DNA of 64,000 nucleotides from Tubulanus polymorphus. Taxonomy: Eukaryota; Nemertea; Palaeonemertea; Tubulaniformes; Tubulanidae. The stretch is from positions 1 through 64,000 of the forward strand of contig NW_027437430.1 of NCBI RefSeq assembly GCF_964204645.1, given 5' to 3'. Position 1 is the stretch's first letter; each line of letters opens with the position of its first letter. The notes under the pieces are model-generated. The model ran no database searches and was not told where the DNA came from. It worked only from the letters and a program-made list of their open reading frames with translations. A program made the translations under genes and the position numbers. This document shows, piece after piece, positions 2,737 through 35,202 of the stretch.

Positions 2737-5700
2737 TTAGGAAATCGGGTCACAATGAAAACAAAACCACCTGATATGTTCAGGAGGAGCCTCATTGATT
2801 GGAGCACATTTCCAATGATACCATCTATGGCAATTATCACATTCAATTGAGAATGTGGACTTTTTCTTAGGATTAGCATTGCAGTTTTTGTGGCAGACAG
2901 GGCAGGTTTCAGCAACTAACCGAGAAGGGGTTTTTTCAACTTTTGATGACAAAAGATTATCTAGTTTCAATTTTGCTAGGTTTTGGAGGCCTGCATTTCC
3001 AGGTTGATCTATAAGAATTTCTAATTCTTTTTCAGAATTGGAATTATTGATTTCTGTAATAGGAGAACTGTTGAGATAATCATCTCTATTATTATAATCG
3101 ATTACAATAGATTTTTTCTTATGATGATTATGTTCAATACGAATGTGCTTTTGAAGGAATGTTTCACTTGCATATGAATTAATAACCCCATCTGCCCAAC
3201 AAATAGCACATGAGATAGGTTTCAAAGATGAATGAGAAGTGGATATGTGCCTATCTAGTTCCCTGCGACATGAACAAAGATATGGAGGATTTATTTTGTC
3301 TTTAATACAAAAGGAACAGACAATACTTTTTTCAAATAAAACAGACTTCGAGTCATTTTTAACAACTGGTATTGACTTAATATCTTTTGGTTTGGTATCT
3401 TTTGATTTTTTTGGTAAGGATGATTTATTCTGACTTAAAATATCTGCTGAAAATTCGATATCATTGCCAGGATCTGGATCAGTGGAGTCTATGGTTTCAA
3501 TTTCTGATATTTTAGCTTTTTTACCTAGTTTGATAGCAGCATTTTCAACCATAGCAGAAAAGGATACACCTCTGTTAGCAGGTCTAATTATCTTTCGCCC
3601 TCCGTGTCTTGCATTCTCAGCATCTTTAGGCATTGTAACCTTAGGACAGTAAGGGTCTATCACTTCAAGTTCAGGAAGGTTTATGGCAACCTGATTGTCC
3701 TTGATTGGACCCTCAGCACGCCTATGAGCCATATTGTGAGGTTGTCGTTTGGCAGGTCGTCCGCTTATTAACTTAATTCCACAGTGGCTTTCATTATGTA
3801 AAATACTTAGAATGTGCCCTTTCCGAGCAGCATTGATATCATTCGAGCTAGCAATGTGGGAATGATCTTTTAACTTATCAATGAGGGTAGATGAAACAGA
3901 AATATTTTGTCGAGTAAAATTGTAAGTTGGCAGAGGCTCCACAATGTGGAATTTATATGCATCAATTAAAGCCTTCGTTGTGGTTATATTGTTTTTTTGG
4001 GCAAAACAGGCAAAAAGATGTTTGCAAAAATATGGTTGTCCAATCATTATAAAAGCTTCACAAGTACATATACCTAGTTTCAAATTGATTAAATGGCAAT
4101 TACCATCTACGTATGAAAGACAATTTTCAGGAACGATTGTAATAACGTAATTGAATAAGATACGACTGGATATTGAATCTAAATTTCCTATGTACCTTCG
4201 GCATTTTTTTGAAATGTCATATGAATGTTCCTCGGATATTGATACTTTATCGGGGAATCTTTCTTCTAAAACATCAAGCTGATTGAATGTATATTGAGTA
4301 TCACCATTGAAAAAATTATCATTATCTTCTAACCTATTTAAGTTCTTTCGTGAAGAACTCTTCACAACAAACCAATTAGTTTCTTCATCATATTTTAAAA
4401 TCTCATTATTCTGTAATAAATCAAAGGCTCTTTTGCAACACTTTTCTATCTTTTCAAGGTGACGTATATTCTTAACTCGTTGGTCAAGTTGCTTAAATTG
4501 GAGATTGTTCATATTTGTCGCTTTGATCTCATCATTAAAAACATTTTCAAACAGTAATCGTACAAAAGATGATATCAGTTTATTTAGGTGTCCACTTAAG
4601 TAGACATCATCTATTTGTTTGAATTTGCGCTCAGTAATATTATCAGTTAATAGCAAAGGGTTATTTCTGTTAGATTGGTCTGACTGATAAATTGATTCAG
4701 CATTGAATGCATCAGACCAAATTTGGGAATTAAACCAATTCTTCTTTAGGTAATCAATAAATAATGTTTTTGTATCTTGCGACATAAGGTCTAAAGAAAT
4801 ATCATTCTCAATAAAACTAATAAATGAATTGGCTATATCAGTTCTAGAGGAAGCATCCCATGATCTCATAATGCATTTGAAACCAGTTTCTAGAGGCTTG
4901 CAAAATAAGCGAAGTTCTTGATTTTCATTCATGAAGCGACGAATACACTGCAGGACATGAAAATTACATAGTACTGATTTAAGATTATTGTCAGATGCTC
5001 CTTGCTTTAGACTTGCATCTTTATCATGTTGTACAAAAGGACAAAATCTAGATGTTGATGAACATGGCTTGATTCTGAAAAAACCATTGCCATCATTAAA
5101 TATATAGAATTCAGATGGATGATTACATTTTTCGTCTTTACATGGTGTATTGGCTAGAACTAACTGGATGGTAGTTGCATGAGTAGCCCCCCCTTCATCA
5201 CTACTAATTGATGCAGCAGCAATACGTCCTTCATTTTTGTTGTCTGCAAAAGTTACAAATGAAGTTTTGAATTTCCACGAATTGAAATCATGTTTCACGT
5301 CAATACCAATGACAGATTGTCCAAAGTTGGATAAATGTTCCAGAGAACGAGGATCAGAGAGAATAATGTGATAATTACGTTTGAGTGTGGCATCCCCTCG
5401 TTGAAATAAAAGGACAGATTCATAGTTACCCTCTAATAATTTTTCAGTATTTCTCCAATCAGAACTTAGAATAGGTATTTCGTCTTGAGATTTCATATGT
5501 AATTTTATCGAAGATTTATCAATATATTTCAATCTATTTGAAATTTGATCTAGGGTATGGTCATGACCGGCGCCATCATTTACATTTGATACATGAAGGT
5601 TATTGTGAGCATTGGTGGCAGAAAGAACCTTCATTGCTGTGGCTTTCATCATGACTCTATTTTCATCCCATCTATCTCTAGTAGATAAATTAGGTCGCTT

Positions 5701-8700
5701 TTTAATTTGTAAAGGAATATTGTCATGATATTGACCATTAAGTGGTTTGCTGAAGATTCTCCACTTGGATAAATCAGTACTAAATAATACAAGTTTTGTT
5801 GCCCAATAACACATAAAATGAGGGTGAATTAATTTTTTTGGCTCAAACTGCTGCCTTAACTTCACAGGACGATCACGTTTATTCTTCAGCTTATAGTTGT
5901 AACAGTTGGAACAAAGTGTTTCACCATCAGCATTTTTCCTCCATTTGTTAGACATGGTAATGGAGCAATGAATACATTGTTTATCATTTAAAACAACGTC
6001 AATTTGACATGAGGGACAATTAGTGATGTTACTGGACATATTCAACTTTGAAAGATAATATCCACATGATGATTTACAAACTGAAGACTTTGACGAACAT
6101 TTTATGAGCATTTCTGCAGCCACAAATTGAGAAGTATCCTCAACAATTGGCTCAATAAATTCAAATTTATTATCTAATCTATGGGTTTGCCAATTCTTTT
6201 TTAATGTTAAGGAAGCTTTCATCGTTGTCTGGTTACCAACAAATGAAGGCCGCACATTCTTATGCAGACGAACTGTTTTTGTAAAATCAAAAGTGAATCT
6301 ATCGAAATAATATTTTGTGTCAGCACCAGTCATTACTTCCCCATTTTCAACCCATTCATCACTAAGTGGATTCTGGTTGTTGAGGTATTTCTTGATAGTG
6401 TCAATGGCTACCTGGTCATTTGTACCTTGGTCTGTACAATGAAAACTTTTATACTTCGTCTTACTGCCAGTTGAATGAAAAGCAACTTCAAGATAATGCT
6501 TTCCTCTCCTGATGCGATGGGAGATAGTAGTTTTAGAACCATTAATATGGGAAGTTAATGGTTCAGCTGAATTTAGAGTTAATGAGGATTGAGGATTCAA
6601 AATTGAGGATGTAGATTCAGGTGTAGATTCATTATTCGAAATTGGTGTAGATTCAGGTGTAGATTTAATAGTCAAAATTGGTGCAGATTCACTATTCGAA
6701 ATTGGTGTAGATTCATTAGTCAAAATTGGTGCAGATTCACTATTCGAAATTGGTGTTGATTCAGGTGTTGATTCATTAGTCAAAATTGGTGCAGATTCAC
6801 TATTCGAAATTGGTGTTGATTCATTAGTCAAAATTGCTGCAGATTCATAATTCGAAATTGGTGTAGATTCAAGTGTTGATTCATTATTCAAAATTGGTGT
6901 AGATTTAGATTTGGCTGTAGTTAAGACTGATTTGCTTTTTTTAGGGGCAATATAAGAGTCTGACATCTTTAATTCAGAACTAGCTAGTGTATTATTTGAC
7001 TCAGTTGATCGTTTATGTCTCTGTCTGCGAGATAATCGTGATATCTTAGAGAAAGTAGTACTATTAGCAGTAGGTTGAGATGACTTTGAGAAGAGTTGAG
7101 TAATATCAATTAGATGTTTCATAAGCCAATTAATCAATATCAATCTAACAAAATCAGAATAGTTAGAAATGTTCTTAAGATAAGATAATTCATTGGGAGA
7201 TGAAAATACACTTGAAATATCCTTTTCATAATAGGTTGCAATGCAAGCACCAATTAATGTAGCAGGGCCACAGACAGATGAACATGATTGGAGTGGGTAA
7301 TAACTAGTACAATTATTACTACATACATGCACTGAATTTTCAGTAACAAAATGAGGATCATGGAGGTGGATATAAACAGGATCAGGGCAATTCAAACCTT
7401 TCAAAACAGATCTTAAATGATTTTTAAATTCCCTTGGACAATCCCATGCTAGTGTATCAGCATAACACAGTTTGTTACTTTTTGGGTAAAAAACTGCTAG
7501 TGCATAATGATTGGCAACAACATGTCCATAAGAATTTAGAAATACGAAATCGTTTTGGGTGCCAACATGCAGGAAAAAAATTAGTTTATCACAACTTATG
7601 AGTGGATTAGGACCGAATCTTTTATATAAATTTGAAACATATTTCTTAGCATCAAATGTAAGTGGCATCATAAATGCATGAATATTACAGTACTGTTCAT
7701 TTATCATAGATGCAAAAGCATTTAACACAGATCCTTCAAACCATTTTTGATTAGTCATCGTCTGAAGTTCTGATACAGATACGCTATTATTATTACCAAC
7801 TGGAAATTGTTGAGAGGGTTTTAAGGAAAAGAGCATATTTGAAAATGCTTGAATCTGTTCCCAATCGACTGAATCAGTGGGGCTTAAAGGCTTACTATTT
7901 ACCCAAAGATTCATGGCAAAAAGATCTTGTTGTTTGGTTTTAGCATAATGTAAGAAAAGAAACCTATTAATCTGATCAATAGAATAGCAGCCTGTATCGA
8001 GTCTCACATGGATATTAATGGAAGGGTCACGGACAATCCTTGACTGCATCTGTGCTTTTATGTCCTCCAACTGATTTTTGTGGGGCATAGTGGGGGCATC
8101 ATCAGCCAAATGACATGAATTAGACATGTCACAAATTCTGAATGACGTGACCTTTGATGGCATAACAGGAGGAATTTTCAAAAACTGATAGTCATTGAGG
8201 CACATTTCTGTTGGATTGTAACTAAAATTTCTTCTACATACATGTTCATCATCAGAATCATTCTCATCACTATCATCAATTATGATTGGTTCGATACCTC
8301 CACCACCTGTGATACTTAGCTGTTTTTTGTTTTCCATCCAGCTATCTTCCTGCATCTTTAATCTTTCTATCCTTTCTTTCGAACTATCTTCCTGCATCTT
8401 TTCTGCTTCCTCTATCGTTCCTTCCGAGAAATTGTCACAAGCCGCGTCCTTTCCTTCTTCCTCCATTGTCCGCCTGAAATACACATTATCAACTCACTTT
8501 TTTTAGACATATGAATAGATAGAGTATGAAATTACCCATATAGGCCTAACATAAAACATGGGTATCTCTGAGTCATTTGCATTAAGTCATTTAGATTTGT
8601 AGGTACTAAATTAATTGAATTATGTTGTACTTACATTTCAGTATGGTTTAAACTAACATGGTCTAGAAGATCTTTCCAATTGGTGAATTCAACTCCGCAA

Positions 8701-11700
8701 AAACATGTCGAGTCAGCAGGATCCGTCTGTGGATGAATAACCTAATGTGGAAGAGCACATTAATCTGTTTTTGCTTCAACATCTAAGCAAAAATAACAAA
8801 AATGAACCCGCATCTCGCAGAAAGGGCATCAAACTTACATGTTCCACTGACTTCCTTTTTCTGTTAAATCTTTTAGTATTGTGACAACTTCTATTGTAGC
8901 ATCCCTGAATATGAAAACAAAGCTTTACAGCATAAATCATACCAATACCAATGAATTTCTATAATTTCATTTCGAGAAACATATTACTCACGTTCTTAGT
9001 CTGATAAAAAGGAGTAAATAATTGAGGCTTTAAACAAATAGCAACACCAGCCACATCAATTTTAGTCATGTACTGGAAAAAAAAGACAGATTTGTGCATG
9101 CACAGCCTTTAGGTAATTGTGAAATAAAAGTGACCAAACTAATATTAAATCATAAGTTCTTGAGATGATATGTACCTGGTCGAATGTGAAAAAGGCTCTT
9201 TGATCTTCACAACAGAATTGTTTCCTTGTATGATGCGCAACGTCAAAACTGCTATACTGGATTGAAGGATACAAAAAACTGTTAAAATATATCTAACTTT
9301 ATAAAGATAAATCACGTACAAATCACTTAGGAAAACAACTTTACCACTATTGTTGAATCATCCCATGCTCTTGCTTGATCATCCTTCAATTTGTTTTTTG
9401 CTATCAGCTATCAATATGATTCATTAATTCAATGCAAGGATTTTGAATAAAGTGGTTTCGTATTCAAGTTATAAAAACTAATTGCAAATCATTCATTTTC
9501 TAGGATATCAATGCTAAATGATTACCTTTCGTCGATGGACTGCTCTACTTCTTTGCATCTTTTCAATCTCATATGGAAAGTATTGAGGGCACCTGATTAA
9601 GAATCATTCATTATTTCCAGTACAATCATAAAATTTATGTAGTTTGCATACCTGGTAATTGGATAAAATAATGCAATTCTACGTACATTTCATCTTCATT
9701 TTTCAATAGCAGTAGTTCCATTATCCTGTTATTTATGAACTGATTTCCCTTACGGCTGGGGTGTAACAAGTCAGTCCTAGATCACAAAATTTAGAAAAAA
9801 ACAAGTTAGTTTAAATCGCGAAAAAATGCACATAACCTACTGGGCTTATTAAAATTAAACGATTACTTACGGTGAAAGGAGATCTCTTGAGAAGTGAAAA
9901 TCAACGAACTTTACACCAAGTGTAAAGCATTCGCGGTGCAGCATTTCATTGTAATGAAATATTTTTGTGTCAGCATCGAAACTTTAAAAAAGAAAGAAAT
10001 TTAAAAATCATTACATCGATCATAAATATAGTACTTCAAGAAAAATCTATTCTTGATACTTACTCATCACATCGAGGAAAAAGAGCTGGTACAATGATGG
10101 TCCCAGTACATTTATAGAGCAACAATCGAATTAATTCAACGTGTCTTCGCAGAACAATCTCAAGCGGGACATCACGCGTCATATTATTTGTTCCAACATG
10201 GACGATTAGTTGTTCCACATTCAGCATCTTCACCTTTTTCAATTCTGTAATATACAACTAATCAGTAACCCAATGAAAATGAACAATATAAATCAGTACT
10301 GAACCGAGAAATTACCTTCCATCAATGTTTCAATGGTTCCTCCGGGGCACACGATCCTTGTCCATTCAAATAAGCCTACACCATCTAGCCCAGCATACTT
10401 TAAAATGCTGTCTGCTACGAGACCAATACGCTACAAAAAAGATTATTTGTCAGTCTCAGGCCAATATCACAGGGAGGTGTGAGAGAGCACACTGGTTACT
10501 GTAAGACCCTACTACATGCAAAAGAAGTGACACATATATGTATATCAATGTGATAGAATTGATTGAAAAAATTGTGCATAATAGTAGCTAGTGCCCAAAA
10601 ATAGAACACAGTGTTATTGAAGTGAAAATTTCTAAAATCCTCTGAAGCGGTGCTTATTTGGTAGCTACATGGGTATTCTAATTGAATAAGCATAAAGATA
10701 AGCGTGCACACACAGTAGCCTATGCATAAACAAGGGCCAGTTTCACCTTCACCTAAAAGTCCTGCAGTGTGAAGACTAACTTGTTCACCTAAACCACCTC
10801 TACCAGGCTGTGGAAGGCCTAACATCAGGCACTAAATTAAAAGATTCCTCTAAATCAAATTATCTATAAACATCCTCTTAATTGCAGGCAGACTGATTCA
10901 GGGAGGGGTGCAGCCCAAAATAGGGCATACATATCAGTATCATATATAATTAAAAATCAAAAGGGCACCAGATCATCAGAAAACATAATACCTATATTTT
11001 GGAAGTAGGCCTACAGAGAACATGTTTTGGAATATAAGCTTTTTAAAAATACTTGTTGATATTTTTAATTTTTCCTTTAAATTTCATTGCGACTTAAAAG
11101 TTTTAAGGGGTGTACACCCCTGTATACTCTCCTGATCTGCCCCTGAATTGCCACTTAACAAAATTTCTCAGCTTAATTGTTGGCTAACTAGCTCAGTGAA
11201 ACTGGGACCAGACCTAATGCATACACCCTCAGTGGCCAGGGCCAGGATTAAACAGTTAGGCTACGTATATAAATAAAGGAATGAAAAGTACTTATCCTGA
11301 AATTGGTTAGGCTATCTATCTGCAACAAGAAATACATTTTCATTGACTCTGAATACAGGGAACTACCATTCTTCTGTTTCGAGGCCTTAAAATTTATTGT
11401 TTATTTTTTGTTGCTGGATTTGGAATGGTTGTTGGAATATTTAAGGCCTAGTAGGTGGTGACTGTGTACGGGCAACATAGGCCTATACCCAGTGGCATGG
11501 CAATGGCATGCCACTGGGTACCCACTACTGCACTATAGTATACTGCCTACGGCTACTGCGACTGGTGGTTCGGTTGGCAGAAATTACTTGTTAACATGGG
11601 GGGGGGGGGAGGGGGGAAGTAAGCGTGGATGAAGACAAATTAATTTAGCCGAGTAAGTAGCAAGCAAGTAAAGTAGTGGCAGTACAGTAGGCCTAGCGAC

Positions 11701-11946
11701 AATGTGAGTGTGGTGGTAACGTGGCCGTGGTGGCAATAACAAGACTCCAAAACTGGCAAAAGCCAAAATTAAAAAGCCCTGCCGCCGCGCGGTCGCGACG
11801 CCTCGCCTGCACCACCGTGTACGATCCTCGCGGCGTTCACCAGTGTTACCCAGTGAGTTTTTTATAATCTTGCAATCTACCTCTTTTTTCAAACCAATAT
11901 TCCCACCAACTGGTCCGGAGACAAGCTTAACACGTTCGGAAAACAT
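2737..11946 (-). CDS. Transposon polyprotein: SGNH hydrolase, Ulp1-like protease, DDE transposase, PHD
   Basis: Predicted exons (5' to 3'): 11946-11881 (least certain), 10430-10316, 10244-10064, 9981-9871, 9776-9687, 9592-9526, 9407-9345, 9256-9176, 9072-8992, 8904-8839, 8741-8635, 8473-2737. All junctions are GT-AG and in phase, giving about 2,254 residues. Domains in order: an SGNH hydrolase (VADS serine near 10408, HVGTNN, then DLLHPS); a C2H2 finger (exon at 8741); an Ulp1-like cysteine protease with His near 7508, Asp near 7457, Gln near 7289 and Cys near 7271, in the Q-x5-CG spacing of C48 peptidases; a Ser/Thr-rich repeat stretch; a GATA-type finger with C-x2-C-x17-C-x2-C spacing (about 5890-5980); a DDE core with Asp near 5300, a second Asp near 5018-5024, a CNFH motif near 4960 and Glu near 4631; a SWIM CxC...CxH finger (about 4020-4080); two C2H2-like fingers (about 3130-3330); and a C-terminal PHD finger (about 2745-2905). 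The last exon alone has an internal ATG at 8466, so a shorter product is possible. Function: probably self-mobilisation; the roles of the hydrolase and protease are unknown. Confidence 0.75.
6595..6905 (-). repeat. Coding minisatellite (Ser/Thr/Pro/Asn-rich) in the transposase
   Basis: Units alternate between ESTPISN-like and ESAPILTN-like peptides, about 10 to 12 times, and stay in frame. They form a low-complexity linker between the Ulp1-like protease and the GATA finger/transposase half of the protein. Copy number is likely to vary between element copies. Confidence 0.85.
10899..11145. mobile_element. Possible MITE in first intron of the transposon gene
   Basis: The ends read CAGGGAGGGG on the left and (reverse complement) CAGGGGCAGATCAGGAG on the right, resembling the GGGGCGGATCC element family at 710 and 26209. 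The match is imperfect and no target duplication is clear. Confidence 0.3.
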
Positions 11947-12065: not shown

Positions 12066-12073
12066 TGACGTCA
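12066..12073. promoter_or_regulatory. CRE-like palindrome TGACGTCA in right TIR
   Basis: This is a perfect copy of the palindrome at the mirror position to 43-50. It lies about 120 bp upstream of the element gene and about 500 bp upstream of the PCIF1 start codon, so it could act on either. It could equally be a transposase-binding site. Confidence 0.4.
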
Positions 12074-12109
12074 CTAGCCATCGACCAAAACAGGCTTTCA
12101 ACCTTTTGC
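12066..12109 (-). repeat. Right terminal inverted repeat of the transposon
   Basis: This is the inverted partner of 7-50. It lies about 120 bp upstream of the first possible start codon of the element gene (11946, minus strand), so this end probably carries the promoter for the transposase gene. Confidence 0.9.

Positions 12110-22128: not shown

Positions 22129-35202
<13,074 letters not shown>

Follow-up and report, generated by a model that had tools for sequence, protein, structure and literature searches.

The window analysed here comprises positions 1–64,000 of contig NW_027437430.1 (C13) of the nemertean Tubulanus polymorphus, and the genome scans covered 267.8 Mb in 77 contigs. At the beginning of the window lies a DNA transposon of 12.1 kb, bounded by 44-bp terminal inverted repeats (TIRs) that enclose a whole gene on the minus strand. 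The 12 exons of this gene, running from 11946 to 2737, join into one frame of 2254 amino acids with no internal stop; all 11 introns are of the GT-AG type and the phases match at each join, which confirms the gene model of the first-pass annotation. As predicted from the sequence, the frame continuously encodes the order SGNH – zinc finger – Ulp1-like – GATA – DDE – SWIM – PHD. The interval given earlier, 2737–11946, covers the gene but leaves out the ends of the element, at 7 and 12109. The features of the element are the following (residues in the numbering of the spliced protein):

12066–12109, no strand: 5′ TIR, 44 bp, 120 bp ahead of the start codon
11881–11946, minus strand: exon 1, with the start codon
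10316–10430, minus strand: exon 2, SGNH blocks I (Ser30) and II (Gly52)
10064–10244, minus strand: exon 3, SGNH block III (HVGTNN, Asn80)
9871–9981, minus strand: exon 4, SGNH
9687–9776, minus strand: exon 5, SGNH block V (Asp160, His163)
9526–9592, minus strand: exon 6
9345–9407, minus strand: exon 7
9176–9256, minus strand: exon 8, Cys pair that opens a putative zinc motif (by eye)
8992–9072, minus strand: exon 9
8839–8904, minus strand: exon 10, CYNRSCH with putative zinc ligands (by eye)
8635–8741, minus strand: exon 11, C2H2-like finger; AT|G join to exon 12 in phase 2
2737–8473, minus strand: exon 12, 5737 nt, with the Ulp1-like protease, GATA, DDE, SWIM-like, C2H2 pair and PHD parts and the stop codon
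6994–8196, minus strand: Ulp1/C48-like region; His665, Asp682, Gln738, Cys744
6620–6905, minus strand: coding minisatellite, a Ser/Thr/Pro-rich linker
5884–5979, minus strand: GATA-type zinc finger, below the Pfam cut-off
4582–5319, minus strand: RNase H-like DDE core; D1401, D1493, CNFH, E1624
4006–4074, minus strand: SWIM-like motif CTC..FCKH (CxC..CxH by eye)
3136–3324, minus strand: two C2H2-like fingers (by eye; weak Pfam match)
2746–2910, minus strand: PHD finger (Pfam)
1102–1882, no strand: minisatellite arrays with 56-, 77- and 166/171-bp units, located between the stop codon and the 3′ TIR
7–50, no strand: 3′ TIR, 44 bp, 98% complementary to the opposite end; contig and window start 6 bp beyond it

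Besides the window copy, ten end-to-end copies were chosen as TIR pairs 9.7–12.6 kb apart, and all ten retained the GT and AG of the 11 introns (22 dinucleotides). An eleventh copy, retrieved only in part and without the relevant region, was excluded from the splice-site count. The whole frame is intact in five of the ten (six of 11 when the window copy is added), while the five broken copies have last-exon deletions or frame shifts, and one of them is also damaged in exon 8. Because the dinucleotides are kept in 10/10 copies and the domain order recurs in further families, the splice joins and the order of the domains are more than chance. Chance joining was ruled out by these copies and by the frame of a second family (family 2, below).

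The outer 33 bp of the TIR were present at 65 genomic places (at most three mismatches), the reversed control at none, and ten TIR pairs, including that of the window, are spaced 11.6–12.6 kb apart. Exact 9-bp target-site duplications (TSDs) were found in ten of the 12 TIR pairs with ends read, compared with 0 of 132 mismatched pairs, and in eight of the ten end-to-end copies. Altogether 16 of 19 distinct copies of the window's family (family 1) have them, three copies being common to both sets. The nearest copies are ca. 99.8–100% identical to the window copy over long stretches and the more diverged ones ca. 94–99%. A genome scan with the DDE part gave 70 matches, including another intact last exon of 1918 amino acids at C2:19709476. 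The paired TIRs, the 9-bp duplications and the several intact, near-identical copies show that the element has moved recently.

Some further observations concern the ends of the element. The intact 1918-aa last exon is enclosed by a TIR pair 17.2 kb apart (C2:19705419-19722669), probably a nested insertion. Shorter TIR pairs, 2.1–7.6 kb apart, have recurrent lengths (6864–6865 bp three times, 4765 bp twice and 4790–4791 bp twice) and are probably non-autonomous deletion derivatives that were likewise amplified. Both TIRs include the palindrome TGACGTCA, at 43–50 and 12066–12073, which corresponds to the cAMP-response-element consensus and may be a promoter or transposase-binding site. A search of viral contigs for relatives of the element produced six pattern matches, none of them confirmed by tblastn.

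The SGNH part of family 1 matches Lipase_GDSL_2 with 34.4 bits against the Pfam cut-off of 32.9, and that of family 2 with 36.1 bits, also above the cut-off. The block residues S30, G52, N80, D160 and H163 are present, as the earlier claim of intact motifs had it; the S, G, N and D/H blocks accompany the model match in families 1 and 2, and the block letters are retained in three families. The closest PDB matches were all weak (E 0.001–0.07): Oskar, the zebrafish long interspersed nuclear element (LINE) ORF1 esterase (structure 4c1b), GDSL lipases and a PAF-acetylhydrolase-like protein. The PHD finger was also recognised by Pfam, with 24.2 bits (cut-off 24) in family 1 and 28.5 bits in family 2. 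Of the other domains named in the first-pass annotation, GATA remained under its cut-off of 26.8 (17.7 and 18.9 bits), although the C-X2-C-X17-C-X2-C pattern is visible by eye, SWIM was matched only weakly and in family 2 only (E 0.25), and the C48 and MULE models gave no match.

For the protease, a PDB search with the single sequence gave no match, but a profile of five sequences, run against 177,635 PDB sequences, placed yeast Ulp1 best (E 0.0025, best stretch 0.019). Next came four hippocalcin entries at ca. 0.2, and then SENP2 entries together with SENP3 at 0.57–1.1. The Ulp1 match covers the His-Asp part and stops ahead of the Cys. When compared in hhalign with three C48 domains from this genome, the region gave P 3.4e-5 (probability 72) over 34 columns around His/Asp, the controls being at P 0.12 or worse. 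The catalytic residues follow the Ulp1 order, with 17 residues from His to Asp and six from Gln to Cys, spacings as in Ulp1. Rejection of the hydrolase or protease fold by such searches had been named beforehand as grounds for abandoning the gene fusion; the sequence-profile tests reject neither. The same genome also has a different multi-copy, transposon-like element with a Pfam-recognised C48 (Ulp1) protease (L064, L065 and L067), in L064 and L065 within an open frame of 1758 amino acids.

The DDE profile found one irrelevant PDB match (E 1.5). Three rows of the DDE alignment, compared in hhalign with three of the genome's 102 places matching MULE (Mutator-like element), gave P 1.2e-4 (probability 54) over 198 columns, the first Asp, QHDKD and CxxH being aligned in register, with controls at P 0.13 or worse. 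This profile similarity and the order D-D-CxxH-E agree with a broadly defined MULE clan. The same comparison points to D1493 (QHDKD), 18 residues ahead of CNFH, as the second Asp, for which the initial candidate FNDGNG was dropped.

The element fits the poorly known Rehavkus group, since duplication, PHD finger and minisatellite agree. Rehavkus elements are described as having a 9-bp TSD, TIRs of 26–400 bp, one open reading frame (ORF), a PHD finger and a minisatellite before the 3′ TIR; their hosts are given as arthropods and annelids, and the known elements are described in Repbase only (PMC6446971). They have been treated as an outgroup of the MULEs (PMC13359780) and counted with Mutator (PMC4438587). 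In family 1, the TSD of the copies, the 44-bp TIRs, the PHD finger and the minisatellite before the 3′ TIR all correspond; family 2 has the PHD finger and an array after its stop codon. The one gene is a further likeness, and Rehavkus-1_TC, of 9.5 kb, is of similar size, while SGNH and Ulp1-like domains are not among the Rehavkus traits listed (PMC6446971, PMC10218199). With MULEs the element shares the 9-bp TSD, a DDE core with CxxH, the SWIM-like motif and a distant profile similarity, but it differs in having no Pfam MULE match. It is accordingly classified, with good confidence, as a Rehavkus-type (MULE-clan) cut-and-paste transposon with one spliced gene, its placement in Rehavkus following published traits and not sequence.

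Two further families in the genome were found with the same design. Family 2 (L059, with additional copies L062 and L063), modelled from its own splice sites, has nine exons and one SGNH–protease–transposase–PHD frame of 2183 amino acids; its identity to the window element is 52% for the DDE region, 37% for the protease and 28% for SGNH. Its array, a 74-bp unit repeated 28 times, lies ca. 200 nt past the stop codon; because the unit there is a different one, the position of the minisatellite appears to be kept while its sequence changes. Farther than ca. 550 bp upstream of the ATG of family 2, the sequence belongs to another repeat. In family 3 (L061), of which the part retrieved reaches the start of the DDE-side region, the domain order up to that point is the same: SGNH exons 42–44% identical to those of the window, the finger exon and the protease region. 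This copy has a tandem duplication of ca. 1.6 kb and an insertion resembling a LINE (by eye). The earlier proposal of an SGNH–protease–DDE fusion within a DNA transposon is backed by the copies, by family 2 and by family 3 as far as retrieved, and the sequences indicate that the fusion is old and retained. Since related families in the genome retain this design, the additional enzymes appear to be of importance for the element.

Between L059 and L062, with codons without an L062 counterpart dropped, omega was 0.17 (0.08–0.34) for SGNH (104 of 211 codons), 0.18 (0.12–0.26) for the protease (394 codons), 0.22 (0.15–0.32) for GATA/DDE (598 codons), 0.34 for the linker and 0.41 (0.18–0.86) for the tail (100 codons). 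Judging from these values, SGNH and the protease of family 2 are under purifying selection. Between L059 and L063, omega of the DDE part was 0.29.

The genome also has a possible relative of another kind in the tandem loci L060 (C8:14395000-14402500). Their frame of 795 amino acids shares ca. 30% identity with part of the element and keeps GATA-like and C2H2 parts. It has no match to the SGNH, protease, DDE and SWIM parts and Pfam finds nothing in it; possibly it is a domesticated, transposase-less derivative.

The best explanation overall, and one we regard as highly probable, is a recently mobile Rehavkus-type transposon with a fused gene, the extra domains of which would serve the element. 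A number of results weigh against this reading. The protease region has no Pfam match, PF02902 included, and it is not one of the genome's 23 C48 matches. Its profile matches to Ulp1 and C48 fall short of the catalytic Cys, and compared with SENP8 alone it gave only P 0.016 (probability 2.9). The DDE part has no match to the Pfam MULE model (PF10551), a model that does match 102 other places in the genome (E up to 1). No TSD is visible in the window copy, because the contig begins 6 bp outside its left end and these bases do not match the right flank. A TIR pair of family 2 was searched for and not found, and the ends of that element were not located. In the comparison of L059 with L063, which is broken in the protease, omega was 0.77 (0.53–1.20) for the protease and 0.40 (0.24–0.68) for SGNH. 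The copies of family 1 have too few differences to gauge selection, and in one broken copy (C4a) the PHD part shows nine nonsynonymous differences against one synonymous.

Concerning the function of the protease, the Ulp1-like domain would most likely strip the SUMO-type tags by which the complex or local chromatin is marked for silencing. The main alternative is a polyprotein that cuts itself, as adenovirus-type proteases do, and so frees SGNH from the transposase. The protease is located between these two parts, beside poorly conserved stretches with only 17–29% identity between families 1 and 2, which fits self-cleavage; however, Ulp1-type enzymes usually cut after the Gly-Gly of SUMO, and we consider self-cleavage rather unlikely.

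Less probable still is the production of two proteins, with retention of the last intron giving an SGNH–zinc finger protein and exon 12 being made separately from its own ATG. The phase-2 donor AT|GTAAGT, if left unspliced, does lead straight into an in-frame stop at the beginning of the intron, and an ATG lies early in exon 12. Yet the finger exon of family 2, the counterpart of exon 11, likewise ends in phase 2, and between it and the last exon the model of family 2 has a 75-nt exon, in phase 2 on both sides, which keeps the frame only if joined at both ends. This exon is recognisable in L063, with none among the matches listed for L062.

That the SGNH exons could be a host fragment captured passively and without a role, in the manner of Pack-MULEs, is suggested by the frequent capture of gene fragments by MULEs (PMC2528002) and by the reported capture of an SGNH gene by fish Helitrons (PMC4021074). 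The block letters kept in three families, the purifying selection and the frame open in six of 11 copies make this very improbable. A domesticated single-copy host gene, to which the many introns and the adjoining host gene might point, is refuted by the large number of near-identical copies that carry TIRs and TSDs, and its probability is close to nil.

For the mobile element with a fused gene, the following course can be proposed. Transcription would begin next to the 5′ TIR. The fingers, GATA among them, would bind the element ends, and the DDE domain would excise the element and reinsert it with a stagger of 9 bp. The PHD finger may read histone tails and direct insertion towards open promoters. 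The window copy is near a promoter, as its end at 12109 lies ca. 470 bp ahead of the first ATG (12582) of a WW-domain ORF (Pfam) that resembles PCIF1. SGNH might act as an accessory esterase or deacylase, as proposed for the LINE ORF1 esterases. The LINE enzyme is reported to bind lipids and to have esterase activity, the model there concerning assembly of the ribonucleoprotein particle (RNP) at membranes (PMC3905857). These two properties offer the best guide to the role of SGNH, but a DNA transposon has no need of RNP assembly.

Of the novelty claimed in the first-pass annotation, the part that holds is the fusion of SGNH to a DDE transposase; a PHD finger (PMC6446971), Ulp1 in DNA transposons (PMC2528002) and SGNH on Helitrons (PMC4021074) had already been reported. 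Ulp1-type proteases are known in plant MULEs and CACTAs, and KI-MULE and CACTA-ULP resemble the window element in having one within a DNA transposon. They differ in being of plants and, in the excerpted account, without mention of SGNH, and in KI-MULE the protease is reversed relative to the transposase gene (PMC2528002). The ORF1 esterases of LINEs (CR1, RTEX and others) are likewise SGNH hydrolases of mobile elements, but they belong to a retrotransposon ORF1, whereas the SGNH of the window shares a gene of many introns with a DDE transposase (PMC3905857). The texim gene of fish Helitrons is an intron-bearing SGNH gene on a DNA transposon, but associated with a Helitron and not fused to a DDE transposase (PMC4021074). 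In the open-licence literature (supplements and Repbase were outside the search), no description of an SGNH domain joined to a DDE transposase was found. As the PHD finger of Rehavkus and the Ulp1 of plant transposons are already published, the conserved SGNH on a cut-and-paste transposase is the unusual part.

Convergent recruitment of the esterase, as suggested earlier, is plausible. The fuller claim, that SGNH is a conserved and selected working part of an animal cut-and-paste transposase lineage, recruited independently of the LINE ORF1 esterases, is put forward tentatively, its chances being a little under even. If it holds, animal DNA and RNA transposons would both require an acyl-ester hydrolase, for instance in reaching germ-line compartments or escaping silencing. 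What the esterase does in LINE ORF1 is so far an open question (PMC3905857). An SGNH that is intact and selected in a DNA transposon without an RNA particle would separate RNP-dependent from RNP-independent explanations. Furthermore, a transposase with its own Ulp1-like protease would allow a link between transposon control and SUMO-type tagging to be tested, and with its intact, near-identical copies the family lends itself to such tests.

The genes neighbouring the element in the window, identified by eye and with Pfam, include the WW domain, a receptor ligand-binding part, a tyrosine kinase and a C2H2 factor. At 28407–33741 on the plus strand, a domain resembling OpuAC (22.1 bits, cut-off 21.2) is followed by the start of a receptor ligand-binding domain (23.5 bits, below the cut-off of 25.4) and, 4 kb farther on, by the tyrosine kinase. 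If these form one gene, it may be a candidate Venus-kinase-type receptor with an extra substrate-binding domain.

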